A stretch of 64,000 nt of DNA, taken from positions 372,001-436,000 of the forward strand of contig NZ_FOEI01000001.1 of NCBI RefSeq assembly GCF_900110615.1. Direction: 5' to 3'. The translations under genes were made by a program, and so were the position numbers. Below are positions 34,433 to 48,370 of this stretch, in pieces; position 1 is the first letter of the stretch; each line of letters opens with the position of its first letter. The stretch is from Flavobacterium urocaniciphilum (lineage in GTDB: Bacteria; Bacteroidota; Bacteroidia; Flavobacteriales; Flavobacteriaceae). The notes beneath the pieces are model-generated. The model searched no databases. It was not told the DNA's origin and worked only from the letters and a program-made list of their open reading frames with translations.

Positions 34433-34517
34433 ACGTCAATTAGCTTCGCTCTGTTCGGCTGAGCCTCGAGTCGAGTGTTTCGATGAAATATGAATCGGAA
34501 TGTATCGAGAATAGTTT
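34433..34517 (+). repeat. Dispersed stop-proximal repeat, copy A (half element)
   Basis: It starts AAACGTCAATTAGCTTCGCT and continues through GAGTGTTTCGATGAAATATG to GGAATGTATCGAGAATAG. The reverse complement of 47171-47260 is nearly the same over its full length. The right-hand palindrome arm present in the other copies is missing here. It starts within 5 bp of the transketolase stop. Confidence 0.75.
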
Positions 34518-34535
34518 TAAATATATTTAATAATC

Positions 34536-34572
34536 AAAACCACGAATAACATTTGTTATTGGTGGTTTTTTT
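34536..34572 (+). terminator. Terminator after the transketolase operon
   Basis: AAAACCAC (34536-34543) pairs with GTGGTTTT (34562-34569), and the inner AATAAC pairs with GTTATT around an ATTT loop, followed by a T run. Confidence 0.75.
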
Positions 34573-34659
34573 ATGAAAAACATTCGTTAAAGTTTTACCA
34601 ACAATAAATCCAAAATAAGTTGTTTTACGTAATTTTATAAAATGATTAATTCTATTATT

Positions 34660-35184
34660 ATGAAACGTATTGTATATGTGCTTTTAATATTAAGTTTTGT
34701 ATCTTGTCAAGGTCAAAATTCAACTACAGAAAAAGCAAAAGAACCCGTTAAAGAAATTACTAATAAAGAAGTAAAAAAAGATACTATGAAATTTGAAGTT
34801 GTAAAAACAGAAGCTGAGTGGAAAGCACAACTTTCGCCAGAAGAATATGCAGTGTTAAGAGAAAAAGGAACTGAAAGACCTTTTACAGGTGAATACGATA
34901 AGCATTTTGAAAAAGGAATGTATGTTTGTGCAGCTTGTGAAAATCCATTATTTACTTCTGATACAAAATTTGATTCACATTGTGGTTGGCCTTCTTTTGA
35001 TGAAGCAATAAAAGGTTCAACTATTTATCATAAAGATACTTCTTATGGCATGATTCGTACCGAAGTAATGTGTGCGAAATGTGGCGGACATTTAGGTCAC
35101 GTTTTTGATGACGGTCCGAAAGCAACAACAGGAATGCGTTATTGTACGAATTCAATTTCGATTAAGTTTATTCCTCAAAAGTAA
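34660..35184 (+). CDS. msrB: Peptide-methionine (R)-S-oxide reductase MsrB, lipoprotein form
   Basis: The 174-residue product starts MKRIVYVLLILSFVSCQGQN, with a lipobox at Cys16; an upstream ATG at 34642 would add six residues before it. The MsrB domain holds the structural zinc cysteines CAAC and CAKC and the catalytic cysteine in RYCTNSISIKF. GHLGHVFDDGP and HCGWPSF are family hallmarks. It repairs R-methionine sulfoxide, here probably in the periplasm or attached to a membrane. It is monocistronic. Confidence 0.95.
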   Translation: MKRIVYVLLILSFVSCQGQNSTTEKAKEPVKEITNKEVKKDTMKFEVVKTEAEWKAQLSPEEYAVLREKGTERPFTGEYDKHFEKGMYVCAACENPLFTSDTKFDSHCGWPSFDEAIKGSTIYHKDTSYGMIRTEVMCAKCGGHLGHVFDDGPKATTGMRYCTNSISIKFIPQK

Positions 35185-35247
35185 ATTTTCTTAATCGAAT
35201 TTATAATTTTATCTTCGCAATTCCGTTATTATGGAATATTTTAAAAA

Positions 35248-36264
35248 ATGCTAAGAAAATTTTTACCGATTTTTATTCTTTTTACTTGTGCTTCCTATGC
35301 TCAGCTTGGAGGTCAATCGGTATATCAATTTTTAAATTTAACGCAATCTCCTCGTCAAGCTGCAATGGGTGGTAAAACAGTTACTATTGTAGATTATGAT
35401 GTAAATCAGGCCTTTTATAATCCAGCTACTATTAATCCGAAAATGCACAATCAATTGTCTTCTAATTATAGTAGCTATTTTGGTGAAGTAACCTACGGAA
35501 CGGCTGCTTATGCCTATACTTGGGACCGACATGTGCAAACTTTTCATGTAGGAGCCAATTATGTAAACTATGGAAATTTCGATGGATACGATGAAATGGG
35601 GAACCAAACCAATAGTTTTACAGGAAGTGAAGGTGCTTTATCTTTCGGATATTCGTATAATATTCCTTGGACTAACATTTATGCTGGAGCCAATGTGAAA
35701 TTTATTACTTCGGCTTTAGAGTCATATAATTCTTTCGGAATTGCAACCGATTTAGGTTTATTATATGTTGATGAAGCTAATGATATCAATTGGGGTTTGT
35801 CGATTAGAAATTTGGGATATCAATTAAAACCTTACGAAACTACTAGAGAAAAATTACCATTAGAAATTACTGCTGGAGTATCTCAATTAATGGAAAATGT
35901 GCCGATTCGTTGGCATGTTACCTTCGAAAATTTACAACAATGGAATATTGCTTTTTCCAACCCAAATAGAGCACAAGGAAGTTTAGATGGAACGTCTGAA
36001 GAAGAAAAAGTATCTTTTTTTAATAATGCCTTACGTCACGTTATAATGGGAGCAGAGTTGTTTCCAGAAAAAGCCTTTAATATTCGATTGGGTTATAATT
36101 TCAGAAGAGGACAAGAATTGAATATTATTGATCAAAGAAATTTTTCAGGAATTGCAGCCGGATTTAGTATTCGTTTTAATAAAGTACGATTCGATTTCTC
36201 TCATTCGCGTTACACAGTTGCAGCTAATTCAAGTATTTTCGGCTTAATGATTAATTTGGATTAA
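35248..36264 (+). CDS. porQ: Type IX secretion system protein PorQ
   Basis: The 338-residue protein has a signal peptide (MLRKFLPIFILFTCASYAQ) and the PorV/PorQ-like beta-barrel pattern: LGGQSVYQFLNLTQSPRQAAMGG near the start, FYNPATINP, and a C-terminal membrane strand FGLMINLD. PorQ is an outer-membrane component of the T9SS that delivers CTD proteins to the sortase complex. It is next to cmk, as in Porphyromonas gingivalis (an established porQ-cmk neighbourhood). T9SS substrates encoded at 16402 and 39734 are potential clients. Confidence 0.9.
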   Translation: MLRKFLPIFILFTCASYAQLGGQSVYQFLNLTQSPRQAAMGGKTVTIVDYDVNQAFYNPATINPKMHNQLSSNYSSYFGEVTYGTAAYAYTWDRHVQTFHVGANYVNYGNFDGYDEMGNQTNSFTGSEGALSFGYSYNIPWTNIYAGANVKFITSALESYNSFGIATDLGLLYVDEANDINWGLSIRNLGYQLKPYETTREKLPLEITAGVSQLMENVPIRWHVTFENLQQWNIAFSNPNRAQGSLDGTSEEEKVSFFNNALRHVIMGAELFPEKAFNIRLGYNFRRGQELNIIDQRNFSGIAAGFSIRFNKVRFDFSHSRYTVAANSSIFGLMINLD

Positions 36265-36321
36265 AATTTGATTCCGCAGAGCTGCACAAAAATTAGACGA
36301 AAAATCACAAAATAAATTTAA

Positions 36322-36329
36322 TAACTTTG
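36322..36329 (+). promoter_or_regulatory. Likely -7 promoter box upstream of cmk
   Basis: TAACTTTG matches the TAnnTTTG consensus 34 bp before the cmk start; no clear TTG at the expected upstream distance was found. Confidence 0.35.
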
Positions 36330-36363
36330 CGACTTTGATTCTAATCTGTCAAAATTACATTTC

Positions 36364-37059
36364 ATGAAAAAAATTACTATCGCAATAGACGGTTTTTCGT
36401 CAACAGGTAAAAGTACTCTAGCAAAACAAATTGCTAAAGAATTAGGTTATATTTATGTAGATACTGGTGCTATGTATCGCGCGGTGACTTATTTTGCTAT
36501 GAGACATAATTTTGTTTCGGAAAATCATTTAGATTCAGAAGGTTTAATTAAGGAGTTGCCTAATATTACTTTACAATTTCATTTTAATGAAGAAGCTGAA
36601 TTTGCAGAAATGTATTTGAATGAAGAAAATATTGAAATTGCTATTCGAACCATTGAAGTTTCTCGATTGGTTAGTAAAGTTGCTGAAATATCGGAAGTTC
36701 GTGCCAAATTAGTAGAACAACAACAAGCGATGGGTAAAAATAAAGGTATTGTAATGGATGGTCGAGATATTGGAACCGTTGTTTTTCCAGATGCAGAATT
36801 GAAATTATTCATGACAGCTAGTACAGAAACTAAAGCACAACGTCGTTTTGATGAATTAGTAGAAAAAGGACAACATGTAACTTTTGAAGAAGTATTGCAA
36901 AACGTTCAAGAACGCGATTATATTGACACCCACAGAGACGATTCGCCGCTTGTAAAAGCTGACGACGCTATTGAAATTGACAATTCACACATGACTAAAA
37001 AAGAACAATTTGAATTGGTAATGGAAATGGTAAGTGAGAAGTTAGAAGTTAGGAGTTAG
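36364..37059 (+). CDS. cmk: Cytidylate kinase
   Basis: The 231-residue protein has the P-loop GFSSTGKST (residues 10-18), IYVDTGAMYRAVTYFAMR, the CMP-binding MDGRDIGTVVFPDAELKLFM and ERDYIDTHRDDSPLVKADDAIEID, all hallmarks of Cmk. It phosphorylates CMP/dCMP for nucleotide supply. The last codons (KLEVRS and the stop) are written in a 7-bp tandem repeat (AGTTAGG/AGTTGGG) that continues beyond the gene, so its extreme C-terminus may vary between strains. It follows porQ in the same direction. Confidence 0.96.
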   Translation: MKKITIAIDGFSSTGKSTLAKQIAKELGYIYVDTGAMYRAVTYFAMRHNFVSENHLDSEGLIKELPNITLQFHFNEEAEFAEMYLNEENIEIAIRTIEVSRLVSKVAEISEVRAKLVEQQQAMGKNKGIVMDGRDIGTVVFPDAELKLFMTASTETKAQRRFDELVEKGQHVTFEEVLQNVQERDYIDTHRDDSPLVKADDAIEIDNSHMTKKEQFELVMEMVSEKLEVRS

Positions 37060-37084
37060 GAGTTGGGAGTTGGGAGTTGGGATT
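37042..37084 (+). repeat. Heptanucleotide word repeat at the cmk 3' end
   Basis: About six units of AGTTAGA/AGTTAGG/AGTTGGG run from within the cmk coding region across its stop codon into the intergenic gap. Confidence 0.7.
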
Positions 37085-37109
37085 TTTTTTCGAATTTGTC
37101 TAACTGAAC

Positions 37110-37502
37110 TTGTTTAACTTCGTTGAATCTTTGATTTCATCTTCTTTTTTTATTTCAATTTATATGTCTGTTTTAGTTTTTACATTTATTTGTGTGTTTT
37201 TTGTATTTATTCCTGGATTGATTCATGTGAAACTTATTAAATATTTGAGAACATCAAAATATTATAATAGAGCTGTTATTTCTGCATTAATTTTAATAAT
37301 TATCTCCATTTTAATGTGGGAAGATTTTGAAATTCAAAAAAACAAACATTTGAGATTTGTTGGTTTTGCGCCATTGCTTTTTTTAATATTGTTTAAGATT
37401 TTAAATAATATTTGGAATTTATATTTAAAAGAGATTTATACTTTTATCAAAAATACAGTAACGATATTGAATCAAAAAATTCTACCTGGAAAGAATTTTT
37501 AA
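37110..37502 (+). CDS. Small predicted membrane protein, probably frameshifted at its end
   Basis: The 130-residue product has two or three hydrophobic helices (MSVLVFTFICVFFVFIPGLI; ISALILIIISILMW; VGFAPLLFLILFKIL) and no family I recognise. The start is a TTG (37110) in repeat-like sequence; an ATG at 37164 is a good alternative. After a run of six A (37474-37479) the -1 frame stays open to a TAA at 37574-37576 and encodes a further hydrophobic stretch (FLIQFFIVFFPLVVCVYIGE), so the gene may really be ~155 residues and carry a one-base deletion. Its role is unknown. Confidence 0.5.
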   Translation: MFNFVESLISSSFFISIYMSVLVFTFICVFFVFIPGLIHVKLIKYLRTSKYYNRAVISALILIIISILMWEDFEIQKNKHLRFVGFAPLLFLILFKILNNIWNLYLKEIYTFIKNTVTILNQKILPGKNF

Positions 37503-37633
37503 TTCAGTTTTTTATAGTTTTTTTTCCATTAGTTGTATGTGTTTATATTGGTGAATTAACTAAACAATATTTTTAAATAATAATTCTTCCCACTTCCATC
37601 TTCAATCTTCAAGCATTTTTTACCACAAAACAT

Positions 37634-37662
37634 TTGTAATTTATAAAAAATTCGTATCTTTG
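37634..37662 (+). promoter_or_regulatory. Promoter of rpsA
   Basis: TTG (37634-37636), an 18-nt spacer and TATCTTTG (37655-37662) match the Bacteroidota consensus. It leaves a ~110-nt untranslated leader before the rpsA ATG. Confidence 0.6.
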
Positions 37663-37718
37663 CGCACCTTTTGGCAGAGTATAGTTTTCAATTGGTAATC
37701 AAATATTTACATAAATCA

Positions 37719-37762
37719 CTGTTGTGTTTTAATCTGCATATATAAAACTAAAACAAACACAG
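37719..37762 (+). promoter_or_regulatory. Leader hairpin before rpsA
   Basis: CTGTTGTGTTTTA (37719-37731) can pair imperfectly with TAAAACAAACACAG (37749-37762), ending 19 nt before the start codon. It may be a translational control site; this is inference. Confidence 0.3.
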
Positions 37763-37781
37763 CATACAAATTTTTATCAGC

Positions 37782-39557
37782 ATGTCTGAATTAAACAAAG
37801 ATCAACAAGCATTTTTAGCAGATTTTAACTGGCATAATTATGCAGAAGGAATTGATGCAATTGATGCAAAAAATCTTCAAGAATTTGAAGATTTAGTAAC
37901 TAAAACTTTCATTTCTACAGGAGATGAGGAAGTTGTAGAAGGTGTAGTAGTTAGAATCACTGACAGAGATGTTATCGTTGATATTAACGCTAAATCTGAA
38001 GGAGCTATTTCTTTAAATGAATTCCGTTACAACCCAGCTTTAAAAGTGGGTGACAAAGTAGAAGTATTAATCGACGTTCGTGAGGACAAAACAGGTCAAT
38101 TAGTATTATCTCACAAAAAAGCAAGAACAATCAAAGCATGGGATAGAGTTATTGCTGCTAATGAGTCTGGAGAAATCGTTAATGGTTTCGTAAAATGCAG
38201 AACTAAAGGTGGTATGATCGTTGATGTATTTGGTATTGAAGCATTCTTACCAGGTTCTCAAATTGATGTTAAACCTATCCGTGATTACGATCAATATGTA
38301 AACAAAACTATGGAGTTCAAAGTTGTGAAAATCAACCATGAGTTCAAAAACGTAGTAGTTTCTCATAAAGCATTAATCGAAGCTGATATCGAGGTTCAGA
38401 AAAAAGAAATCATTGGTCAATTAGAAAAAGGACAAGTATTAGAAGGTGTTGTTAAAAACATTACTTCTTACGGTGTATTCATTGACTTAGGTGGTGTAGA
38501 TGGATTAATCCACATTACTGATTTATCTTGGTCTCGTATCAACCACCCAAGTGAAGTTTTAGAATTAGACCAAAAATTAAATGTTGTTATCTTAGATTTC
38601 GATGATGAGAAAACAAGAATTCAATTAGGTTTAAAACAATTAAACGCTCACCCATGGGATGCTTTAGCAGCTGATTTAAAAGTTGGTGATAAAGTAAAAG
38701 GTAAAGTAGTTGTTTTAGCTGATTACGGTGCTTTCATTGAAGTAGCGGAAGGAGTAGAAGGATTAATTCACGTTTCTGAAATGTCTTGGTCAACTCACTT
38801 AAGAAGTGCTCAAGATTTCGTTAAAGTTGGTGATACTGTTGAAGCAGTTATCTTAACTTTAGATAGAGACGATAGAAAAATGTCTTTAGGTATTAAGCAA
38901 ATGACTCAAGATCCATGGACTGGAATTACTGAAAAATTCCCTGTTGGATCTAAACATACTGGAATCGTTAGAAACTTTACTAACTTCGGAATTTTCGTTG
39001 AGTTAGAAGAAGGAATCGACGGATTAGTATACATTTCTGATTTATCTTGGACTAAGAAAATCAAACACCCATCTGAATTTGTAAATGTAGGTGATAAATT
39101 AGACGTAGTTGTTTTAGAATTAGACGTTGAAGGTAGAAAATTATCTTTAGGTCACAAACAAACTACTGATAACCCATGGGACAAACATGAAGCAGCTTAT
39201 GCAGTTGGTTCAGTTCACAATGGAACTATCTTAGAAATGGTTGACAAAGGTGCAACTGTTGATTTCGGAGATAACGTACAAGGATTTGTTCCTACACGTC
39301 ACTTAGAAAAAGAAGATGGTAAAAAATTGAAAAAAGGTGATGCAGTTGACTTCAAAGTAATTGAGTTCAATAAAGAATTCAAAAGAATTGTAGCTTCTCA
39401 CACTGCAACATTTAGAGAAGAAGAAGAGAAAAACTTCAAAGCTGCTGCAGCTGAATCTTCAAATGTTGCTTCATCTTCAAACAATGCTGAAAAATCAACT
39501 TTAGGTGATATCGATGCATTAGCTGAATTAAAAGCTAGAATGGAAAAAGGAGAGTAA
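37782..39557 (+). CDS. rpsA: 30S ribosomal protein S1
   Basis: The 591-residue protein is made of repeated S1/OB-fold domains; clear units occur in sequence as VEGVVVRITDRDVIVDI, VNGFVKCRTKGGMIVDV, LEGVVKNITSYGVFIDLGG, VKGKVVVLADYGAFIEV, HTGIVRNFTNFGIFVELEEG and HNGTILEMVDKGATVDFGD, six in all. S1 helps load mRNA on the 30S subunit. The length and the low-complexity C-terminal tail (AAAESSNVASSSNNAEKS) are usual for Bacteroidota. It is transcribed alone, from a strong promoter with a long leader, to a terminator at 39602. Confidence 0.97.
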   Translation: MSELNKDQQAFLADFNWHNYAEGIDAIDAKNLQEFEDLVTKTFISTGDEEVVEGVVVRITDRDVIVDINAKSEGAISLNEFRYNPALKVGDKVEVLIDVREDKTGQLVLSHKKARTIKAWDRVIAANESGEIVNGFVKCRTKGGMIVDVFGIEAFLPGSQIDVKPIRDYDQYVNKTMEFKVVKINHEFKNVVVSHKALIEADIEVQKKEIIGQLEKGQVLEGVVKNITSYGVFIDLGGVDGLIHITDLSWSRINHPSEVLELDQKLNVVILDFDDEKTRIQLGLKQLNAHPWDALAADLKVGDKVKGKVVVLADYGAFIEVAEGVEGLIHVSEMSWSTHLRSAQDFVKVGDTVEAVILTLDRDDRKMSLGIKQMTQDPWTGITEKFPVGSKHTGIVRNFTNFGIFVELEEGIDGLVYISDLSWTKKIKHPSEFVNVGDKLDVVVLELDVEGRKLSLGHKQTTDNPWDKHEAAYAVGSVHNGTILEMVDKGATVDFGDNVQGFVPTRHLEKEDGKKLKKGDAVDFKVIEFNKEFKRIVASHTATFREEEEKNFKAAAAESSNVASSSNNAEKSTLGDIDALAELKARMEKGE

Positions 39558-39566
39558 TCTCTTTTT

Positions 39567-39596
39567 CTGTCATACTGAACTTGTTTCAGTATCTAA
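39567..39596. repeat. Dispersed repeat TCATACTGAACTTGTTTCAG
   Basis: A short imperfect palindrome (ACTGAAcTTgTTTCAGT) of the GTCATACTGAAC-type intergenic repeat family seen in many Bacteroidota; it lies between the rpsA stop and its terminator. Confidence 0.45.
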
Positions 39597-39601
39597 ATAA
39601 C

Positions 39602-39636
39602 AAATCCCAATCAGCAATGATTGGGATTTTTTTTTA
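39602..39636 (+). terminator. rpsA terminator, identical to the one at 41722
   Basis: AAATCCCAATCA (39602-39613) pairs with TGATTGGGATTT around a GCAA tetraloop and is followed by a T run. The same hairpin, loop and T run recur exactly at 41722-41755. Confidence 0.85.
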
Positions 39637-39733
39637 TAACAATTTTATAATTTGTAGTTTGAAAAAGTAATAAAAATAATACAATATTGAAGCAACCTTT
39701 TTGTTATTTTAGCATCTTGATAAAAACACAACA

Positions 39734-41698
39734 ATGAAAAACTACTACTTACTTGTATTCTTGCTTTTGGGCTTTATTGGAAAAGCTCAAATTATTTCTA
39801 TTCCTGATGCTAATTTTAAGTCGAAATTGTTGACTTCCAATTTGTCCAATGGAATAGCAAAGGATATTAATCTTAATAATATTATTGTTGATTTAAATAA
39901 TGATAATGAAATTCAAGCTAATGAAGCGCTCTTAGTTTATTATTTAGATTTAACATCTTCAAACATATACTCAATTGTAGGAATTAATAATTTTATTAAT
40001 TTAAAATATTTATATGCTGGAAATAATTTTTTAAACACTTTTGATTGTCAAGGATTAATTAATCTAAAGTACTTATATCTTTTCAACAATCAATTTACTA
40101 CATTAGATGTTTCACCATTAATCAGTCTTTTGGATTTTGATTGCATGAGTAATAACCTTTTGAAAATTTTAAATGTTAAAAATGGAAGAGATGAGGTTGT
40201 TTATTTTAATTACAATCCTAATTTAAAATATGTATGTTGTGATTTAAATGAGACTCCATATATTGCTCAAAGAGTATCGGAATATGGTTACACTAATTGC
40301 AATATAAATTCTTACTGCACATTTGAACCTGGAGGTATATTATATGTTGTTCAGGGAAATAATAAATTTGACAATGAAAATGATGGTTGTGATAATAATG
40401 ATGGTTTTATACCTAATCTTAAATATTCAATTAATAATGGAACATCGACTGGACAGTTGATTTCAAATAATACAGGAGTTCATTCCATTCATGTGCAATC
40501 AGGATCACATACAGTAACACCAATTTTAGAAAATCCAAATTATTTTAATGTGTCTCCAGCAAATGTTTTGGTTAATTTTCCTACACAAGCTAGTCCGTTT
40601 ACACAAAACTTTTGTATTACGCCAAATGGAGTTGTCCATGATGTAGAAGTTTCAATAATTCCAACAAGTGTTGCCAGACCAGGTTTTGATTGTTATTATC
40701 AAATTATTTATAGAAACAAAGGAAATCAAACAGAAAACGGAACTGTTAACCTACAATTCAATGATGCTATTTTAGATTTTGTTTCGTCAAGTGTTATAAA
40801 TTCTAATCAAACTTTAAATAATTTGAATTGGAATTATGTTAATCTTCTGCCTTTAGAAACAAGAACTATAAATGTTGTATTGAATTTAAATTCTCCAATA
40901 GAAACTCCAGCAGTTAATGGAAATGATGTTTTAAATTTAATAACTACAATAACTTCACCTGATGAAGTTCCATGTAATGATTGGCTTCAATCTCGATGTG
41001 ATAATGTATTTACTTTAAACCAAACGGTTGTGAATTCATATGACCCAAATGATAAAACCTGTTTGCAAGGGACAACTATAAGTCCAGATAGAGTAGGTGG
41101 ATATGTACATTACATGATTCGATTCGAAAATACGGGAACTTTCCCTGCCGAAAACATTGTGGTTAAAGATATGATTGATACCGCTAAGTTTAATGTTTCG
41201 AGTTTAGTGCCATTACATGCGAGTCATAATTATGTTACGAAAATTTCTGGTAATAAAGTAGAGTTCATTTTTGAAAATATCAATTTGCCTTTTGATGATG
41301 CCAATAACGATGGTTATATTGCTTTTAAAATTAAAACGCTACCAAGTTTAGTGCTTGGAGATACATTTAGTAATTTGGCAAATATTTATTTCGATTATAA
41401 TTTTCCAATAATCACAAACACTGCAACGACAACAATTGCTGCATTAAGTAATCCGAGTTTTGAATTTTCAAACTATATTAGTTTGTATCCAAATCCAACT
41501 ACAAATGAATTGAATATTAACTTGAAATCAGCAATAGAAATTCACTCGATTCAAATTTATAATACAATCGGACAATTGGTGACTGTTCAAACAGGAAATG
41601 CTTTGAAAGTTGATGTTTCGAATTTAAAAACGGGCAATTATTTTATTAAAATAAATACCAATGAAGGTTATTCAACAAGTCAATTTATTAAGGAATAG
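39734..41698 (+). CDS. Secreted T9SS type A substrate with leucine-rich-repeat-like and DUF7619-like domains
   Basis: The 654-residue product has a signal peptide (MKNYYLLVFLLLGFIGKAQ), a short leucine-rich-repeat-like region (residues ~75-150, with NLKYLYAGNNFLNTFDCQGL), Ig-like or DUF11-like beta domains, then a DUF7619-type module (NSYDPNDKTCLQGTTISPD, YMIRFENTGTFPAENIVVKD) and a type A sorting domain (SLYPNPTTNELNINL, GNYFIKINTNEG). It should be exported by the T9SS and attached to the cell surface. It is flanked by identical terminators. The ligand is unknown. Confidence 0.9.
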   Translation: MKNYYLLVFLLLGFIGKAQIISIPDANFKSKLLTSNLSNGIAKDINLNNIIVDLNNDNEIQANEALLVYYLDLTSSNIYSIVGINNFINLKYLYAGNNFLNTFDCQGLINLKYLYLFNNQFTTLDVSPLISLLDFDCMSNNLLKILNVKNGRDEVVYFNYNPNLKYVCCDLNETPYIAQRVSEYGYTNCNINSYCTFEPGGILYVVQGNNKFDNENDGCDNNDGFIPNLKYSINNGTSTGQLISNNTGVHSIHVQSGSHTVTPILENPNYFNVSPANVLVNFPTQASPFTQNFCITPNGVVHDVEVSIIPTSVARPGFDCYYQIIYRNKGNQTENGTVNLQFNDAILDFVSSSVINSNQTLNNLNWNYVNLLPLETRTINVVLNLNSPIETPAVNGNDVLNLITTITSPDEVPCNDWLQSRCDNVFTLNQTVVNSYDPNDKTCLQGTTISPDRVGGYVHYMIRFENTGTFPAENIVVKDMIDTAKFNVSSLVPLHASHNYVTKISGNKVEFIFENINLPFDDANNDGYIAFKIKTLPSLVLGDTFSNLANIYFDYNFPIITNTATTTIAALSNPSFEFSNYISLYPNPTTNELNINLKSAIEIHSIQIYNTIGQLVTVQTGNALKVDVSNLKTGNYFIKINTNEGYSTSQFIKE

Positions 41699-41720
41699 AC
41701 TTTAATTAATACTTTATAAT

Positions 41721-41755
41721 AAAATCCCAATCAGCAATGATTGGGATTTTTTTTT
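41721..41755 (+). terminator. Terminator after the T9SS-substrate gene, twin of the rpsA terminator
   Basis: AAAATCCCAATCA (41721-41733), loop GCAA, complement 41738-41750 and a run of nine T. It is identical to 39602-39635 over ~34 bases. Confidence 0.85.
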
Positions 41756-41818
41756 ACCTTTTTAAAACCAAGCTTTTTCTTTTTTCGTACATGTATGTAT
41801 AAACTTAAATTATTAAAC

Positions 41819-42379
41819 ATGAAAACGAAAAAAATCTTATCAGTAGTTGCTTTTGCATTATTTACAAGTATCACTGCTTTAGCACAAAACGAGAAAACAG
41901 TAGAAGTAGGTGGAGCACCTATGTATCCTTCAAAAAACATTGTTGAAAATGCAGTAAATTCAAAAGACCACACTACTTTAGTGGCAGCTGTAAAAGCAGC
42001 AGAATTAGTAGATGTATTAATGTCTAAAGGCCCATTCACCGTTTTTGCTCCAACAAACGCTGCTTTTGAAAAACTACCTTCAGGAACAGTGGAAACTTTA
42101 CTAAAACCAGAAAACAAAAAATTATTGCAAACTATTTTAACCTACCATGTAGTTGCTGGTAAAATGAACGCAAAAGATTTAATGGCAGCAATTAAAAAAG
42201 GAAATGGAAAAGCAGTTTTGAATACGGTAAGTGGAGGAAAACTAACCGCTTGGATGAAAGGAAACGATATATATTTAACTGATGAAAATGGAAATTCTGC
42301 AAAAGTAACAATAGCAGATGTAAATCAATCAAATGGAGTGATTCATGTAATTGATTCAGTTGTTACACCAAAATCATAA
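41819..42379 (+). CDS. Fasciclin (FAS1) domain-containing secreted protein
   Basis: The 186-residue product starts MKTKKILSVVAFALFTSITALAQ, a signal peptide; longer frames upstream overlap the previous terminator. The remaining ~140 residues are one FAS1 domain, with ELVDVLMSKGPFTVFAPTNAAF (H1 region), LLQTILTYHVVAGKM and ADVNQSNGVIHVIDSVVTP (H2). FAS1 proteins are adhesive or surface-associated. A short NIVENAVNSKDHTTL precedes the domain. It stands alone and ends at a bidirectional terminator facing pheT. Confidence 0.93.
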   Translation: MKTKKILSVVAFALFTSITALAQNEKTVEVGGAPMYPSKNIVENAVNSKDHTTLVAAVKAAELVDVLMSKGPFTVFAPTNAAFEKLPSGTVETLLKPENKKLLQTILTYHVVAGKMNAKDLMAAIKKGNGKAVLNTVSGGKLTAWMKGNDIYLTDENGNSAKVTIADVNQSNGVIHVIDSVVTPKS

Positions 42380-42400
42380 TTTTTAGTTTTTAGTTACAAA

Positions 42401-42440
42401 AAATCCCATTTTTAAATTTTAAAAATGGGATTTGGTTTTT
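42401..42440. terminator. Bidirectional terminator between the fasciclin gene and pheT
   Basis: A 13-bp stem AAATCCCATTTTT (42401-42413) with its complement at 42421-42433 serves the plus-strand fasciclin gene and may also stop pheT transcription from the other side. Confidence 0.7.
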
Positions 42441-42444
42441 AAAT

Positions 42445-42475
42445 GCCTGACAGGTTTCAAAAATCTGTTAGGTTT
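42445..42475 (-). repeat. CCTGACAGGTTT-type hairpin repeat
   Basis: CCTGACAGGTTT pairs imperfectly with AATCTGTTAGG, ending just after the pheT stop at 42481. A perfect member of the same type lies at 62418-62445. Confidence 0.5.
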
Positions 42476-42480
42476 ATTAA

Positions 42481-44907
42481 TTATCTTAAAACAGCTTCTA
42501 ATTTATTTTCGAAATTAGTTTGTAAGTTTTTCATGATTTTATCAATTTGTACATCGGTTAATGTTTTAGATGTATCTTGAAGAATAAAACTCAACGCATA
42601 CGATTTCTTTCCTTCAGGAAGATTTTTCCCTTCGTATACATCAAATAAATTGATATTTTTCAATAATGATTTTTCAGTTTGTTTTGCAACTGCAAATAAT
42701 TCTTCAAAAGTTACTGAGCTGTTTACTAATAAAGCTAAATCTCTTCTTACTTCTGGGAATTTAGGAATTTCAGTTAACTTGATTTTATTTGAAACATATT
42801 TCTGAATCGCATTCCAATTTAAATCTGCAAAGAAAACATCTTGTTTTATATCAAAATGTTTTAAAATTGATTTTTTAACTGTTCCAAATTCTGCTACGAT
42901 TTCATTTCCAATTGTAAATGCAATTCCTTCATTAAACACATCATGCGTAACAGGAACTGTTTTCACTTTTGAATCGATATTCAATTTAGACAAAATAGTC
43001 ATTACATAACCTTTGAATAAAAAGAAATCGCTTGGTTTTTGAGCAACATTCCAATTTTCAGAAGTTGCATTACCTGTCATACTGATGGTTAAATGCTTTT
43101 TCTCTGTGTAAGCACTTTCAATTTTATGATATGTTTTTCCGAATTCAAATAATTTTAAATCGGCATTTTTTCTATTGATGTTATATGATATTGCTTCTAA
43201 TGCAGAGAACAACATCGATTGTCTCATTACAGATAAATCACTACTTAACGGATTTAACATTGAAACCGTTTCTTCAGCTTTAACTTGTTCAGATAATTCA
43301 ATATAACTTGAAGTTGTTAAAGAGTTTGCCATCATTTCATGGAAACCTACTGAACATAATTGATTTGCAATGATGTTTTGTACTTTAAATTCTTCTGTTC
43401 TTGATGAATTAGAAACGGAAGCATTAATTTTACTTGGAATTTTAATGTTGTTATATCCATAAACACGTAAAATTTCTTCAATAACATCCACTTCTCTTTG
43501 AACGTCCACTCGGTAAGAAGGAATAACTAATCCTAATCCGTTATCGGTAATACTATTTACTTTAATGTCTAAAGAAGCTAAAATATTTTTGATAGTTTCT
43601 TTTTTCAATTCTTCACCAATAAGTTTATTGATTTTATCGAAAGTTAAGAATACTTGAAAATCTTCAATTTTCTTTGGATAAATATCAACAATGTCAGAAG
43701 TGATTTCACCACCAGCCACTTCTTGAATTAATAATGCTGCACGTTTTAAAGCGTAAACAGTAATTTCCGGATCAATTCCTCTTTCAAATCTAAAAGAAGC
43801 ATCTGTAGAAAGAGTATGACGTTTGGCTGTTTTTCTAATTGAAACCGGATTGAAATATGCACTTTCTAAGAAAATATTTGTAGTTGTTTCTGTAACTCCA
43901 GAATTGGCTCCACCAAATACTCCAGCAATACACATTGGTCCGCTTTCGTCACAAATCATTAAATCTTCTTCGTGAAGTTCTCTTTCTATATTATCTAAAG
44001 TGGTAAATTTAGTTCCAGCAGCAACTGTTTTTACAATTACTTTATTTCCTTTAATTTTATTTGCATCAAAAGCATGTAACGGCTGACCTAATTCGTGTAA
44101 CACATAATTAGTAACATCAACAATATTGTTTTTTGGAGCTAATCCAATTGATTTTAATCGGTTTTGTAACCAAGCCGGTGAAGGTTTTACAGTAACTCCA
44201 GAAATTGTAACTCCTGCATAGCGTGGTGCTAATTTATTATCAACAACATTAACGTCAATTTTTAATGTTCTTTTGTCAACTTTAAATTTACTTACAGAAG
44301 GTGTGATGAATTCTGTATGAACATTAGTCTGACTCAATCCTGCTTTTAAATCACGAGCTACACCTAAATGACTCATAGCATCTGCACGGTTTGGCGTTAA
44401 ACCAATTTCAAATACTTCATCCACTTCAATGTTGAATACTTTACTGGCTGGAGTTCCTGGTTTTAAATCATCTGCTAAAACCATAATTCCATCATGACTA
44501 TCGCCTAAACCAATTTCGTCTTCAGCGCAAATCATTCCGAAACTTTCTTGTCCGCGGATTTTTCCTTTTTTAATTTCAAAACTATTTCCTTCTTTATCAA
44601 AAAGTTTCGTACCAATTGTAGCTACAGGAACTTTTTGTCCGGCAGCAACATTACTTGCTCCACAAACAATTTGAACAGGAGTTCCATCACCTAAATCAAC
44701 AGTAGTAATTTTTAATTTGTCGGCATCTGGATGCTTTTCACATGTTAAAACATGTCCAACAACAATACCTTGTAGTCCACCTTTAACACTTTCAAAATTA
44801 TCTACAGCTTCAACTTCTAAACCTAAATCTGTTAGTAATGATGAAATTTCATCTGATTTCCAGTCGATTTTAATAAATTGTTTTAACCAATTGTAAGAAA
44901 TACGCAT
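42481..44907 (-). CDS. pheT: Phenylalanine--tRNA ligase beta subunit
   Basis: The 808-residue protein has an N-terminal tRNA-binding EMAP-like domain (VVGHVLTCEKHPDADKLKIT, QIVCGASNVAAGQKVPVA), the B3/B4 editing domain (HELGQPLHAFDANKIKG, CIAGVFGGANSGVTE), B5, the catalytic-like core (HEMMANSLTTSSYIE) and a C-terminal FDX-ACB anticodon-binding domain (RDLALLVNSSVTFEEL). It pairs with PheS, which is not encoded in this window, to charge tRNA-Phe. It is a single-gene unit with TATCTTTG upstream at 44931-44938 on the minus strand. Confidence 0.97.
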   Translation of the reverse strand: MRISYNWLKQFIKIDWKSDEISSLLTDLGLEVEAVDNFESVKGGLQGIVVGHVLTCEKHPDADKLKITTVDLGDGTPVQIVCGASNVAAGQKVPVATIGTKLFDKEGNSFEIKKGKIRGQESFGMICAEDEIGLGDSHDGIMVLADDLKPGTPASKVFNIEVDEVFEIGLTPNRADAMSHLGVARDLKAGLSQTNVHTEFITPSVSKFKVDKRTLKIDVNVVDNKLAPRYAGVTISGVTVKPSPAWLQNRLKSIGLAPKNNIVDVTNYVLHELGQPLHAFDANKIKGNKVIVKTVAAGTKFTTLDNIERELHEEDLMICDESGPMCIAGVFGGANSGVTETTTNIFLESAYFNPVSIRKTAKRHTLSTDASFRFERGIDPEITVYALKRAALLIQEVAGGEITSDIVDIYPKKIEDFQVFLTFDKINKLIGEELKKETIKNILASLDIKVNSITDNGLGLVIPSYRVDVQREVDVIEEILRVYGYNNIKIPSKINASVSNSSRTEEFKVQNIIANQLCSVGFHEMMANSLTTSSYIELSEQVKAEETVSMLNPLSSDLSVMRQSMLFSALEAISYNINRKNADLKLFEFGKTYHKIESAYTEKKHLTISMTGNATSENWNVAQKPSDFFLFKGYVMTILSKLNIDSKVKTVPVTHDVFNEGIAFTIGNEIVAEFGTVKKSILKHFDIKQDVFFADLNWNAIQKYVSNKIKLTEIPKFPEVRRDLALLVNSSVTFEELFAVAKQTEKSLLKNINLFDVYEGKNLPEGKKSYALSFILQDTSKTLTDVQIDKIMKNLQTNFENKLEAVLR

Positions 44908-44930
44908 TTTAAAATTTTTTTATAAGAATG

Positions 44931-44938
44931 CAAAGATA
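44931..44938 (-). promoter_or_regulatory. Likely -7 promoter box of pheT
   Basis: TATCTTTG on the minus strand, 23 bp before the pheT ATG, matches TAnnTTTG; the -33 TTG is unclear. Confidence 0.4.
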
Positions 44939-45012
44939 ACTATTTGAATATAATTTTAAAGTAATTTTTGATGTAGATGAAAAGTTTAGTTGTAAAATAT
45001 TTTTCACTAAAA

Positions 45013-45045
45013 TTGATTTTATAGTTTCAATATTTTATAACTTTG
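45013..45045 (+). promoter_or_regulatory. Promoter of the Kup potassium transporter gene
   Basis: TTG (45013-45015) and TAACTTTG (45038-45045), separated by 22 nt, lie 24 bp before the ATG at 45070. Confidence 0.45.
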
Positions 45046-45069
45046 TGTTTCGTTTTTATAAATTTTAAA

Positions 45070-47028
45070 ATGGAAAAAAATTCACACGGCTTGCATAAAC
45101 TTTCAGCAGCCGGTTTACTAGTTACACTAGGAATTATTTATGGAGATATCGGAACTTCTCCATTATATGTATTAAACGCAATTATTGGTAAGAATGCAAT
45201 TAATACAGATACTATTAAAGGTGCCATCTCTTGTATCTTTTGGACCTTAACCCTACAAACTACAATTAAGTACGTAATTTTAACTCTAAGAGCCGACAAT
45301 AACGGTGAGGGTGGAATTTTTTCTTTATACGCCTTAATTAGAAAAACAAAAATTAAATGGTTATTATTTCCAGCAATTATTGGTGGTTGTACACTTTTAG
45401 CGGATGGAATTATTACACCGCCAATTTCGGTATCATCTGCTATTGAAGGAATTAAAACAATGTATCCAAGTTTTCCTGAGGATAAAATTATGTACATTGT
45501 TATCATCATTTTAACTGTTCTTTTCGGAATTCAGCAGTTCGGTACTAAGTTTATCGGGAAGTTTTTCGGACCAGTAATGTTATTATGGTTTGGAATGTTA
45601 GGAACTTTAGGTATCATTCAAACGTTTTTAAATCTAGAGATTTTATCGGCTTTAAATCCGTATTACGCTTATAAATTATTAGCTGAACATGGTGGATATT
45701 TATACTTAGGTGCTGTTTTCTTATGTACAACAGGAGCAGAGGCATTATATTCTGACTTAGGTCATTGTGGAAAACAAAACATTAGAATTAGCTGGATTTT
45801 CGTAAAAACTACTTTAATCTTAAATTATTTAGGACAAGGTGCTTGGTTAATTCAACACGATGGACAAACGTTAGAACAAGCTGGAATTACAAATCCATTT
45901 TATGGTGTAATGCCAGAATGGTTTTTACCAGTGGGAATTGCAATTGCAACTTTAGCAGCAATCGTAGCTTCTCAAGCGTTAATTAGTGGATCGTTTACCT
46001 TAATCAATGAGGCGATTCGATTAAACTTTTGGCCAAGAGTTAAAATCAAATATCCAACCGAGTTAAAAGGACAATTATATATTCCATCTTTAAACTGGTT
46101 GTTATGGGCTGGATGTATTTTTATTGTATTGTATTTTGAAAAAGCAGCTGCCATGGAAGCGGCTTATGGTTTAGCAATTGTATTAACGATGTTAATGACC
46201 ACTACATTGTTAAACTTCTATATGATTTTAAAACGATACCATAAAGCGTTTATTTGGACTATCATTCCAATTTATGTAATTATCGAAATGGCCTTTTTAT
46301 ATGCTTGTATGCATAAATTTGGTGAAGGTGGTTACATAACTTTAATTATTGCATTTGTTTTATTTGCAGTAATGACGTGTTGGTATTTTGCTAGAAAAAT
46401 TAGAAACCGTTTCGTTGAGTTTGTAAAATTAGATAAATATTTACCAGTATTAGAAGATTTAAGTAAAGACGAATCGGTGCCTAAATATGCTACAAACTTA
46501 GTTTACTTAACAAGTGCAGATAACCGATACGAAATTGAATCGAAAATTATTTATTCGATTATGAATAATAATCCGAAACGTGCTGATATTTATTGGTTTG
46601 CTCACGTACATGTAGTAGATGAACCATATACTATGGAATATAGAGTTTGTGAGTTTATTCATGATGATGTTATCCGTGTAGATTTCAGATTAGGATTTAG
46701 AATTGCACCGAAATTCAATAAAATGTTTGCGCAAGTTGTAAAAGACATGCAAAAAAGAGGAGAAGTAGATTTAATGAGTCGTTATACTTCTTTAAACAAA
46801 CATAAAGTAATGGGTGATTTCCGTTATGTATTAATTGAGAAATTCATGTCTTACGATAATGCATTACCTTTCTATGAGAAATTAATTTTAGACGGGTATT
46901 CAATTCTTAAAAAAATGGGATTATCTGAAGAGAAAGCTTTTGGTTTAGATCCAGGTTCAGTAACGATTGAGAAATTCCCTCTGAAAATTTCAAATACGAA
47001 AGCAATCAAATTAACAAGAGTTGATTAA
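45070..47028 (+). CDS. kup: KUP-family potassium transporter
   Basis: The 652-residue protein has the KUP signature GIIYGDIGTSPLYVLNAI, the family block NNGEGGIFSLYALIRK, about twelve membrane helices to residue ~440, and a cytoplasmic C-terminal domain (RADIYWFAHVHVVDEPYTMEY). The ATG at 45070 is chosen because a TTG at 45043 lies in the promoter -7 box. Kup takes up K+ with protons at the inner membrane. It is monocistronic, followed by a strong terminator. Confidence 0.95.
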   Translation: MEKNSHGLHKLSAAGLLVTLGIIYGDIGTSPLYVLNAIIGKNAINTDTIKGAISCIFWTLTLQTTIKYVILTLRADNNGEGGIFSLYALIRKTKIKWLLFPAIIGGCTLLADGIITPPISVSSAIEGIKTMYPSFPEDKIMYIVIIILTVLFGIQQFGTKFIGKFFGPVMLLWFGMLGTLGIIQTFLNLEILSALNPYYAYKLLAEHGGYLYLGAVFLCTTGAEALYSDLGHCGKQNIRISWIFVKTTLILNYLGQGAWLIQHDGQTLEQAGITNPFYGVMPEWFLPVGIAIATLAAIVASQALISGSFTLINEAIRLNFWPRVKIKYPTELKGQLYIPSLNWLLWAGCIFIVLYFEKAAAMEAAYGLAIVLTMLMTTTLLNFYMILKRYHKAFIWTIIPIYVIIEMAFLYACMHKFGEGGYITLIIAFVLFAVMTCWYFARKIRNRFVEFVKLDKYLPVLEDLSKDESVPKYATNLVYLTSADNRYEIESKIIYSIMNNNPKRADIYWFAHVHVVDEPYTMEYRVCEFIHDDVIRVDFRLGFRIAPKFNKMFAQVVKDMQKRGEVDLMSRYTSLNKHKVMGDFRYVLIEKFMSYDNALPFYEKLILDGYSILKKMGLSEEKAFGLDPGSVTIEKFPLKISNTKAIKLTRVD

Positions 47029-47032
47029 AAAT

Positions 47033-47061
47033 AAAAACCACGCTAAAGGCGTGGTTTTTTT
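47033..47061 (+). terminator. kup terminator
   Basis: AAAAACCACGC (47033-47043) pairs with GCGTGGTTTTT (47049-47059) around a 5-nt loop, followed by T residues. Confidence 0.85.
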
Positions 47062-47067
47062 ATTTAT

Positions 47068-47104
47068 ATTTTAAAGAATTTCTTCTATATGTTTTTTGAT
47101 GATA
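47068..47104 (-). pseudogene. Relic duplicate of the bestrophin gene 3' end
   Basis: On the minus strand this reads as a coding tail KNIIKKHIEEIL-stop, matching the real C-terminus SNIKKHVEEIL-stop at 47261-47297 (32 of 37 bases by hand alignment). It lies on the other side of the palindromic repeat. Confidence 0.6.
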
Positions 47105-47108
47105 TTTT

Positions 47109-47260
47109 TCGTCAGTTCGACTGATTCCGATTTATCGGAATTGTATCGAGAACAAGAAAAATATCATTAAAAACGATTCTCGATACATTCCTATTCATAC
47201 TTCATCGGAACACTCGACTCAAGGCTCAGACGAACAGAGCGAAGCTAATTGACGTTTTTA
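47109..47260 (-). repeat. Dispersed stop-proximal palindromic repeat, copy B
   Basis: From the bestrophin side it reads AAAACGTCAATTAGCTTCGC, GAGTGTTCCGATGAAGTATG, GGAATGTATCGAGAATCG, a spacer, then the inverted arm TTCTCGATACAATTCCGATA to TCGAACTGACGAAAA. The arms can fold into a long hairpin. It begins 3-4 bp after the bestrophin stop. Confidence 0.75.
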
Positions 47261-47263
47261 ATT

Positions 47264-48127
47264 TTATAGAATTTCTTCCACATGTTTTTTAATGTTACTA
47301 GCAATTTTAGCCGTTGGCAAGTCGTTTTCATCGCCACCAAATGGATCTTCAATTTCTTCAGCAATTAGCTCTAAACTGGCTAATACGTAAAAGATGAAAA
47401 TAACTACTGGAACAATATAATATCCTAAACTAAAAACAAATCCGAATGGTAACGTCATTACATAAAAGAAAATAAATTTCTTGATAAATGCACTATATGA
47501 GTAGGGGATAGGTGTGTTTTTAATTCGTTCACAAGCGCCACAAACATCTGTAAAGGATTGAATTTCGGCATTGATAATAATTAATTGATCTCCAGAAATT
47601 TTATTCGATTTGTATAAATCATTCACTTTGCTATAAAGCATTTTAGCTACCTGATTCGGTTTATGTTTTGAATGATCAATTTCCAAATCTAAACCTTCAA
47701 AAAGCATTTTACTTACTTCTTCATTTCCTAAATGTTTAGATAAGATGGAAGCATAACTAGGAATAATTTTTCTGAAATAACTTTTATCTGCTTCATTTTC
47801 TAAAATAGCCGATAATTTAATGGCTAAGTTTCTAGAATTGTTTACTAAACTTCCCCATAATTTTCTTCCTTCCCACCAACGATCATAAGCTGTATTCGTT
47901 CTGTAGGCTAATAGTAACGATAATACAAATCCAACTGTGGTATGCATGATGGAAATGTTTTTAACATGACTATCGTCTTTTAATTTAAAATGATGTATTT
48001 CCAAATAGCAGACTAATCCAGAATAAACACCAATTAAAATCATCATCGGAAGTAATTGTCGAAAGGTATCCGATTTATGAAATTTGAAAATAAAAGTAAG
48101 CCAGTCTTTTGGGTTGTATTGTACCAT
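47264..48127 (-). CDS. Bestrophin-like (YneE/UPF0187 family) anion channel
   Basis: The 287-residue protein starts MVQYNPKDWLTFIFKFHKSD and contains VGFVLSLLLAYRTNTAYDRWWEGRKLWGSL, the family signature (RxNxAYDRWWEGR), then IKNTPIPYSYSAFIKKFIFFY and a C-terminal ELIAEEIEDPFGGDENDLP typical of bestrophins. They form pentameric anion channels in the inner membrane. The 3' end is bordered by a dispersed palindrome and a duplicated copy of its own last ~12 codons. Confidence 0.93.
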   Translation of the reverse strand: MVQYNPKDWLTFIFKFHKSDTFRQLLPMMILIGVYSGLVCYLEIHHFKLKDDSHVKNISIMHTTVGFVLSLLLAYRTNTAYDRWWEGRKLWGSLVNNSRNLAIKLSAILENEADKSYFRKIIPSYASILSKHLGNEEVSKMLFEGLDLEIDHSKHKPNQVAKMLYSKVNDLYKSNKISGDQLIIINAEIQSFTDVCGACERIKNTPIPYSYSAFIKKFIFFYVMTLPFGFVFSLGYYIVPVVIFIFYVLASLELIAEEIEDPFGGDENDLPTAKIASNIKKHVEEIL

Positions 48128-48228
48128 GTTTGGGTTATATGTTTATTGTTTATTGTTCTTTGTTAAAAAGTCACTAAAATACTAATTTCACCTTTTATGA
48201 ACAATACGTTTTTAATGATATTTTTTAG

Positions 48229-48370
48229 ATGCACACGCTGAAAGCGATTTGGCGAAACTTTTCGACAGATTCTGATTTATTGGAATCGTTTTGAGAACTA
48301 GAAAAATTCTTTTTTAGGGTTCTCGATACATTCCGATTCATACTTCATCGAAACACTCGAACTGACGTTA
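48229..48370 (-). repeat. Dispersed stop-proximal palindromic repeat, copy C
   Basis: Read from the tolC side: AACGTCAGTTCGAGTGTTTC, GATGAAGTATGAATCGGAAT, GTATCGAGAACC, a spacer, then GTTCTCAAAACGATTCCAAT and AATCTGTCGAAAAG. It starts about 4 bp after the tolC stop, like copies A and B after their genes. Confidence 0.7.

Follow-up and report, generated by a model that had tools for sequence, protein, structure and literature searches.

CGTC-tagged palindromic repeats in Flavobacterium urocaniciphilum and, in relatives, their genomic linkage to a clade of stand-alone GIY-YIG nucleases

We analysed three palindromic copies in a 64,000-nt stretch of the F. urocaniciphilum genome (the window). 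Judging from sequence, these copies are probably orphan, non-autonomous REP-like palindromes with a CGTC tag, and their partner appears to be a stand-alone GIY-YIG nuclease rather than a Y1 transposase. The arms of the repeat adjoin one clade of such nucleases, which are ∼96 aa long and in relatives are encoded between two arms.

Copies in the window

The three copies reported in an earlier note, here called A, B and C, are genuine. We can also confirm that each of B and C has a second arm in inverted orientation (degenerate in the case of C) while A has a single arm, and that all three copies start near a stop codon, with the CGTCA head 5 nt (A), 9 nt (B) and 7 nt (C) past the stop. The features are as follows:

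34426-34428, plus strand: TAA stop of the transketolase C-half gene (33475-34428), 5 nt ahead of copy A
34434-34512, plus strand: copy A, one arm, whose CGTCA head starts at 34434 and whose tail GTATCGAGAA spans 34502-34511
47033-47059, no strand assigned: terminator-like hairpin between convergent genes, outside copy B
47063-47104, minus strand: second, diverged copy (83%) of the bestrophin 3' end, beyond copy B
47110-47153, plus strand: copy B arm 1, compact hairpin, bestrophin-distal
47154-47175, no strand assigned: AT-rich centre of copy B, which repeats the outer flank TTTTTTGATGATATTTTT in inverted orientation
47176-47254, minus strand: copy B arm 2, which carries the insert of ∼33 nt; its head lies 9 nt past the bestrophin stop
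47256-47297, minus strand: 3' end of the bestrophin gene, duplicated at 47063-47104; TAA stop at 47264-47266
48261-48298, plus strand: copy C arm 1, degenerate (TTCGACAGATTCTGATTTATTGGAATCGTTTTGAGAAC); recognised by eye against copy B arm 1, no match by the model
48319-48367, minus strand: copy C arm 2; head 7 nt past the TolC-like TAA; top-scoring arm of the genome (76.2 bits)

Copies A and C share a 41-nt core with 98% identity, and A and B could be matched over 93 nt at 92%. In copy A the insert of ∼33 nt is placed after the CGTCA head, and the insert found in A and B has further occurrences elsewhere in the genome. A scan of the window against Rfam showed no family reaching its gathering score. 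The second copy of the bestrophin 3' end is absent from F. difficile. From copy B and two other loci (L006 and L009) we had suspected that the doublet centre is a fold-back copy of the host gene end, but we dropped this reading because the doublets of other genomes show a similar centre and flank; centres resembling that of copy B also occur elsewhere in the genus, again within doublets. The centre was inverted relative to a flank (score ≥12) in 20 of 39 doublets and direct in none of the 39.

Structure and copy number of the repeat unit

The repeat unit is a hairpin of ∼48 nt: the CGTCA head stays unpaired, the foot is bulged, the inner stem is variable and the tail reads GTATCGAGAA. It is arranged either as single arms or as tail-to-tail doublets. 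A covariance model detected 17 arms in 13 elements across the 2.85-Mb genome and the exact GTATCGAGAA occurs 16 times, compared with 3 times for the reversed control; thus the repeat is beyond chance. The head tag was CGTC in 12 of 14 arms, CCTC in one and CATC in one. The foot takes the form N-TTC-GA/TC-GA-GAA-N', including a bulge of 2 nt, and is reduced to TCGA/TCGA in the energy fold; it is accompanied by an internal loop and a separate inner stem. Loops span 3-13 nt (six arms) and the bases past N' vary from copy to copy. The first foot pair N-N' differs between arms and covaries. Across the 14 arms of the F. urocaniciphilum genome 95.2% of the pair cells were paired, with 24 double-change cells compared with 6.3 after shuffling. 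For 127 distinct nuclease-adjacent arms, the alignment of which had been fitted to the model, the corresponding numbers were 192 and 68.5, and the N-N' pair was broken in 35 of 126 arms. Same-direction clusters in one genome of the genus (G017) had led us to suspect integron attC-like arrays; we set this candidate aside, the arrays read in two other genomes (G007 and G114) being made of alternating arms.

Position relative to stop codons

The element had been described as always abutting a stop codon in one orientation. The "always" does not hold across the genome: 8 of the 12 intergenic elements of the F. urocaniciphilum genome are found no more than 10 nt from a stop, and the remaining elements (13 in total) are located 35, 70 and 243 nt from a stop, between two starts in one case and inside a gene in another. 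In the window 8.6% of the intergenic bases are this close to a stop, and measured against this chance level 8 of 12 corresponds to p ≈ 2e-4 when two ends per element are allowed for. In the relatives 11 of 63 sampled elements were within 15 nt of a stop, compared with 5.5% per base (p = 0.08 for two ends and 6e-4 for one end). Stop-codon proximity is a bias and no rule, and outside the F. urocaniciphilum genome it is weak. As to the orientation, single arms are the informative case: the head faced the nearby stop in 10 of 11 (4/4 by eye in the own genome, 6/7 in the relatives), a tally in which any second arm that had decayed beyond recognition by the model would escape notice. For doublets the orientation is uninformative because a tail-to-tail doublet has heads at both outer ends.

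A selected element at mRNA 3' ends, either a terminator or a stability hairpin, would account for the 8 of 12 intergenic copies close to a stop, for the same end pointing towards the stop in single arms and for the covarying hairpins. We nevertheless regard such a role as very improbable. One copy lies in frame within a hemW-like gene and another one between murD and ftsW, the stop bias is weak in the relatives, and the sites of B and C are empty in F. difficile, in the genome of which the model detected no arms. The hemW-like and murD-ftsW copies make the terminator function put forward in the earlier note unlikely. We dropped it as the main function on these two copies and on a pattern scan of copies A to C, which showed no G+C-rich hairpin with a direct T run in any of the three; the terminator-like site near B (47033-47059) lies outside the copy.

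Another candidate, a stop codon supplied by the element itself, was ruled out for B and C, where the C-termini end at the same place as those of F. difficile. A hairpin with a T run is visible by eye at ∼34536-34576, beyond copy A, and was not called by the pattern scan.

Linkage to GIY-YIG nucleases

Strong arms were found beside the gene at 14 of 91 GIY-YIG loci, a sample that is enriched for repeat-positive genomes. In a tree built from 90 GIY-YIG proteins, a single branch separates the 14 bracketed loci and one further locus (L118) from all others, and the group so defined includes no unbracketed member. The tree values are 85/90 for the 15-row group and 90/91 for the 13-row core, and the tree omits 2 of 92 GIY-YIG loci (L177 and L200) for which no frame was obtained. 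Members of the clade within the genus (at least 71% identity) showed adjacent arms at all 18 loci, with arms on both sides at 17. In other genera the same was true for all 30 best fetched matches, taken from 30 genomes, with arms on both sides at 29. Both tails were directed towards the gene at 32 of 45 two-sided loci and not both in the other 13. The protein encoded at L118 matches PF01541 (4e-18) over 73 of its 96 residues, and the 48 core matches have open frames of 86-179 codons, two of them with an internal TAG (G009 and G227). Small single-domain relatives in sequence are UPF0213 proteins (PDB 1zg2, E 5e-10; PDB 1ywl, E 6e-9), which we take to be of the GIY-YIG type and which are distant from the nuclease of the clade.

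The nuclease and the repeat also co-occur across genomes. Within the genus the repeat was present in 18 of 18 genomes with the nuclease compared with 30 of 103 others (p = 6e-9). Across the family the numbers were 47 of 47 compared with 92 of 252 (p = 2e-18), using a cut of 104 bits that was set after the list had been inspected and just under which lie three repeat-negative genomes (G375, G288 and G410). A genome was called repeat-negative on the basis of at most 50 (genus) or 20 (family) scored candidates under strict filters. The F. urocaniciphilum genome contains no cognate nuclease at E ≤ 1e-10, hence its copies look orphan. It is one of 30 among the 48 repeat-positive genomes of the genus that have no nuclease at ≥71% identity; this group also includes G017, for which 48 of 50 scored candidates were matches. 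The repeat can therefore persist, and perhaps multiply, without the nuclease.

The absence of the nuclease from many repeat-positive genomes would also fit a passenger, that is a homing-type GIY-YIG enzyme which spreads into the palindromes as landing sites without spreading the palindromes themselves. It is textbook knowledge that GIY-YIG enzymes include homing endonucleases, and other stand-alone GIY-YIG genes of the genus are located between or beside tRNA genes with duplicated flanks, which resembles site-directed insertion. However, every sampled clade-bearing genome carries the repeat (18/18 and 47/47), at 32 of the 45 two-sided loci the gene lies where a doublet has its centre, and landing sites alone would not multiply single and double arms. 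We consider a passenger to be a credible but unlikely explanation.

Other candidate mobilisers

REPIN/RAYT systems (REPtrons) combine GTAG-tagged miniature palindromes, inverted doublets, a linked enzyme acting on single-stranded DNA and orphan copies. With inverted doublets and a tagged hairpin our repeat looks REPIN-like, many genomes of the genus encode RAYT-type genes (87 of 121 with PF01797) and 13 of 29 RAYT loci are straddled by their own repeats. A REPIN moved by a RAYT, i.e. a Y1 tyrosine transposase, is nevertheless hardly credible. The Y1 transposase that the earlier note proposed to look for has no PF01797 match in the F. urocaniciphilum genome, and arms were found at 0 of 30 genus loci, these being 30 of the RAYT loci listed. 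The presence of RAYT was independent of the repeat (37 of 48 repeat-positive genomes compared with 50 of the other 73; p = 0.41), and the tag is CGTC(A) and not GTAG. The missing match, the 30 loci and the lack of a cross-genome association led us to drop this partner.

Some doublets of the relatives are embedded in an element of ∼200 bp with different terminal inverted repeats, and on account of these elements a second mobiliser is possible. Taken further, the repeat as a whole could be a miniature inverted-repeat element that is filled by the doublet (R1) and mobilised by a transposase of the DDE type. AACCCGTTGGGTGTAATTA-like ends occur at 23 of 69 dispersed loci in the relatives, at 19 of them on both sides, and likely target duplications of 7-8 nt can be seen by eye at three loci (L089, L348 and L357). 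Against this, such ends were found at none of the 37 loci of the F. urocaniciphilum genome (overlapping loci counted apart) and at none of the 30 family nuclease loci, and the 18 genus loci gave one weak match within the gene. We therefore think it improbable that a DDE-type transposase explains the repeat.

Proposed mechanism and relation to known systems

In its layout the doublet resembles an arm-gene-arm unit in which the gene has been swapped for a centre of ∼20 nt, a relation like that of a non-autonomous to an autonomous element. If the GIY-YIG nuclease is the partner of the palindromes, it would recognise the arm hairpin in single-stranded DNA (on the lagging strand, in a transcription bubble or in incoming DNA) and cut at the hairpin foot. 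The released single strand may then be repaired or copied and thereby seed new copies. The surviving copies would be those that landed in AT-rich DNA, often right after stops, or in frame. In F. urocaniciphilum the nuclease may have been lost or may never have been there, and the copies would be fossils. That the B and C sites are empty in F. difficile points to mobility of these copies. This model leaves the stop-codon proximity unexplained.

The label "REP-like" in the earlier note was right in form: we see a tagged hairpin, inverted doublets and, in F. urocaniciphilum, a location mostly just downstream of genes. The CGTC-tagged REPs of families 1-4 (Di Nocera et al. 2013, PMC3733652), which include dRS3 of Neisseria and RPE-4 and RPE-6 of Rickettsia, carry an unpaired CGTC, TGTC or CCTC tag at one end, a plain stem of 8-9 bp with A-T at the first and second position, a loop of 4-5 nt and an unpaired 3-nt tail fitting CCA. 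They are mostly found downstream of coding regions and often next (<20 bp) to ORF 3' ends, so the stop proximity of REPs is already described there, and no dedicated enzyme is reported for them (PMC3733652). Our repeat agrees with these REPs in the unpaired CGTC tag at one hairpin end, the inverted dimers, the in-frame copies within genes and the presence of tyrosine transposase genes in such genomes that are not flanked by the repeat (PMC3733652). It differs in the bulged foot with a variable inner hairpin instead of the plain stem, in the wider range of loops (3-13 nt), in a covarying N-N' as the first pair instead of A-T, in that no CCA tail was seen and in the GIY-YIG gene bracketed by arms in the relatives.

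The closest parallel for such a gene may be Ssn/NTS of Neisseria, reportedly a small stand-alone GIY-YIG nuclease that is site-specific for single strands and paired with the dispersed NTS repeat, and said to have many homologues with targets of their own. As reported for Ssn/NTS, the candidate pair described here involves a stand-alone GIY-YIG gene, with one nuclease clade linked in the genomes to one repeat; clade, repeat and phylum are different. The likeness to REPIN/RAYT consists of the inverted-doublet palindromes, the linked candidate enzyme and the orphan copies; the enzyme is of the GIY-YIG type here and Y1/HUH there. The clade-specific bracketing offers a partner candidate for a class of repeats thought to be enzyme-less, as well as a concrete candidate pair of enzyme and substrate. 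It also suggests where an intergenic repeat widespread in the family may have come from, 139 of 299 sampled family genomes being repeat-positive.

A broader reading, to which we give slightly less than even credence, is that the dedicated enzymes so far missing for CGTC-tagged palindromes are, in bacteria at large, stand-alone GIY-YIG nucleases. Each clade would drive a hairpin family of its own, arm-nuclease-arm units would be autonomous and doublets and single arms non-autonomous. The whole would be a replicating element that relies on a GIY-YIG nuclease in place of a transposase and is convergent with REP/RAYT. Plain GTCA-tagged hairpins of 8-10 bp flanked only 4 of 70 other GIY-YIG genes on both sides, thus the plain-stem form is not general; among the controls there were 0 of 300 random centres with such hairpins on both sides and 3 with one on one side, and 0 of 29 RAYT loci. 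Straddling repeats of the other clades contained GTCA or TGAC at 43 of 58 loci compared with 42 of 125 random pieces, which is only suggestive, and one locus may contribute several repeats to this tally. The other GIY-YIG genes behave alike in that repeats straddle 70 of 83 full-length loci (bracketed ones counted) compared with 3 of 91 random centres.

Repeat family and arm structure

For relatives of F. urocaniciphilum we found that one family of hairpin repeats is paired with one clade of stand-alone GIY-YIG proteins (hereafter the nuclease) in an arm-gene-arm layout; the own genome carries the repeats and no member of this clade. The window corresponds to G000:C15:372001-436000, and the three palindromic copies in it are present as the earlier note had described them:

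Copy A, plus strand, after tkt
Copy B, minus strand, after the bestrophin gene
Copy C, minus strand, after tolC

The unit is an arm (R1), a hairpin of ∼48 nt with the order CGTCA - N - TTCGAGTG - variable hairpin - TGTATCGAGAA - N', where the CGTCA head lies outside the stem. Elements are single arms or doublets, i.e. two arms with tails inward around a centre of ∼20 nt that is AT-rich in most cases. We trained a covariance model on 14 arms; in the own genome (2.85 Mb) it detected 17 arms, which we then merged manually to give 13 elements. Exact matches to GTATCGAGAA number 16 in this genome, and two of them (L008 and L016) lie within other sequence and are not elements. Copies A and B carry an insert of ∼33 nt behind the head, which is part of another intergenic repeat of the own genome. 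Three copies of that repeat cluster on contig C9 (L028, L030 and L031, G000:C9:90163-91537). The window also holds two identical 35-nt terminator-like hairpins (AAATCCCAATCAGCAATGATTGGGATTTTTTTTTA) at 39602-39636 and 41722-41756, 2.1 kb apart.

N and N' were paired in all 14 own arms (G-C, C-G, A-T or G-T) and unpaired in 35 of 126 arms adjoining nuclease genes. At the foot TTC-GA may pair with TC-(GA)-GAA, leaving a two-base bulge, and both sides of the inner stem are altered in many copies. The hairpin covaries: the 14 own arms gave 24 compensatory cells compared to 6.3 in shuffles, a signal that dropped sharply when the pairing was slid. For 127 distinct arms adjoining nuclease genes, whose alignment was fitted to the model, we counted 192 compared to 68.5 cells. 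DNA folding of six single arms showed a modest gain over shuffles (z from −2.8 to 0).

Position relative to genes

The elements had been expected always to abut a stop codon in one orientation. Genome-wide this applies to eight of the 12 intergenic own elements, with the head 0-10 nt from the stop, where 8.6% of the intergenic window bases lie equally close by chance. One own copy lies between murD and ftsW (the latter assigned by place and sequence), 4 nt past the murD stop. The other four of the 12 stand between two start codons or have the stop 35, 70 or 243 nt away, and the thirteenth element sits in frame inside a hemW-like open reading frame whose stop-to-stop length is 395 codons. For the relatives we fetched 69 loci and set aside six of them (four were arrays, one was a nuclease cassette and one lay at a contig end), which gave 63 elements; 11 of the 63 were at most 15 nt from a stop, a weak excess (p = 0.08 for two ends, 6e-4 for one end). 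The orientation held for single arms near a stop, with the head toward the stop in 4/4 own and 6/7 relatives' cases and a single exception. A survey of REPs (PMC3733652) describes copies close to 3' ends as well as copies in frame within genes, which makes this part of our result known behaviour.

Empty sites

Among eight named relatives searched with the model, F. difficile had 0 arms and the other seven 1 to 55. F. difficile is the nearest named relative; its bestrophin is 91% identical, and tolC and bestrophin are adjacent as in the window, with no element after either gene. In the window the bestrophin 3' end stands on both sides of copy B (47063-47104 and 47256-47297), and F. difficile has a single copy. 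The duplicated stretch spans 42 nt (approximately the last 10 codons) and is 83% identical. It has seven differences; by our reading five of them are coding and three of those are at third positions. The second 3' end may stem from duplication of the target, or the locus may be a mosaic formed from two alleles. The closest named relatives of the bestrophin are mostly Flavobacterium. Three records labelled Methylophilus or Methylophilaceae (L255, L256 and L258) hold bestrophins 77-78% identical to the window's, inside Flavobacterium's own range, which may reflect transfer or misassigned contigs.

Association with a GIY-YIG nuclease

The suggested partner, a Y1 tyrosine transposase (RAYT, PF01797), found no support. 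Its domain had no match in the own genome. PF01797 genes occur in 87 of 121 genus genomes, independently of the repeat, and none of the 30 fetched PF01797 loci carried arms.

In genome G114 an arm array surrounds a stand-alone GIY-YIG frame and we therefore collected GIY-YIG loci, 91 in total: three of the own genome, the best 30 of the genus, and the other matches listed in repeat-positive genomes. Strong arms adjoined the gene at 14 loci; L154 and L160 had weak matches only (20 to 24 bits), and at L128 and L149 the arm was distant from the gene. In a tree of 90 GIY-YIG proteins, where many forks are weak because it rests on 103 columns, the 14 arm-flanked proteins and that of L118 (15 in all) are separated from all others by a single branch.

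A genus search with one clade protein matched 18 genomes at ≥71% identity, the next match being 60%. Arms were present at 18/18 of these loci, two-sided at 17, and all 18 genomes were repeat-positive compared to 30 of the 103 others. For 12 further loci (47-60% identity) we observed arms of 26 to 33 bits at L237 and weak matches at L235 and L238. Across 299 genomes of the family, 47/47 with a match of at least 104 bits were repeat-positive compared to 92/252 others; this cut was set after inspection, at the point where repeat-negative genomes start. Repeat-negative here means no match among at most 50 (genus) or 20 (family) scored candidates per genome. For the best 30 of these family matches, from 30 genomes, arms adjoined the gene in 30/30, two-sided in 29. 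Of the 45 two-sided loci, 32 (11/16 and 21/29) have the nearest tail motif on each side directed at the gene, so that the gene mostly occupies the position of a doublet centre. Dense occurrences were also noted at L117:5570-6750 and L114 to L116: G007 has an arm array with a repeat unit of ∼146 bp, and G017 has many copies across 55 kb of one contig.

In the inferred mechanism the nuclease would cut the arm as single-stranded DNA, and this cutting would lead to new copies. Part of these observations would also be expected from a homing-type nuclease that only inserts itself into palindromes, and the relation may thus run the other way. The nuclease is missing in 30 of 48 repeat-positive genus genomes, in agreement with orphan families but also with a weaker link. 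A subset of the relatives' doublets (23/69 loci, 19 two-sided) is surrounded by an element of ∼200 bp whose ends are AACCCGTTGGGTGTAATTA-like, seen in several genus genomes (L331, L341, L348, L357 and others). Some of its copies have likely target duplications of 7-8 nt, and such ends were found at no own-genome copy. As this element surrounds them, the enclosed doublets may have a second route of spread.

Relation to known repeats

The tag places the repeat among the CGTC-tagged REPs in the wide sense. The four described families share features of stem, loop and tail that it lacks, and hence it is placed in none of them. According to PMC3733652, CGTC repeats have no dedicated enzyme, and G. 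forsetii is among the species whose tyrosine transposases they do not flank; the word GIY-YIG is absent from the paper's main text. Within the papers covered, word searches that combined GIY-YIG with Ssn, Neisseria or palindromic repeats brought up nothing relevant, and neither did those for such repeats in Flavobacterium. A 2025 paper on Ssn reportedly deals with single-strand nucleases of the GIY-YIG type in Neisseria and with the repeats that belong to them; the general idea may therefore already be in print, and this pair and layout perhaps not.

Other GIY-YIG genes

Repeats straddled the gene at 70 of 83 full-length GIY-YIG loci, compared to 3 of 91 random window positions and 13 of 29 RAYT loci, and by eye they differ between clades. 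The own genome has three stand-alone GIY-YIG genes, one of which (L124, G000:C14:85123-85347) is bracketed by GTCATTGCGAG...CGAAGCAATCT palindromes. The gene at L215 is bracketed by GTCAACCTGAACTTG-type and that at L131 by GTCATTCCCGCG-type palindromes, which we take to resemble dRS3. Another stand-alone gene of the own genome (L125:1260-2099, G000:C3:132800-133639) lies between two tRNA-Asp copies, with flanks that repeat each other directly over 152 nt (88%). tRNA genes also adjoin GIY-YIG genes at L128 (Phe), L164 (Val), L178 (Arg) and L197 (Met).
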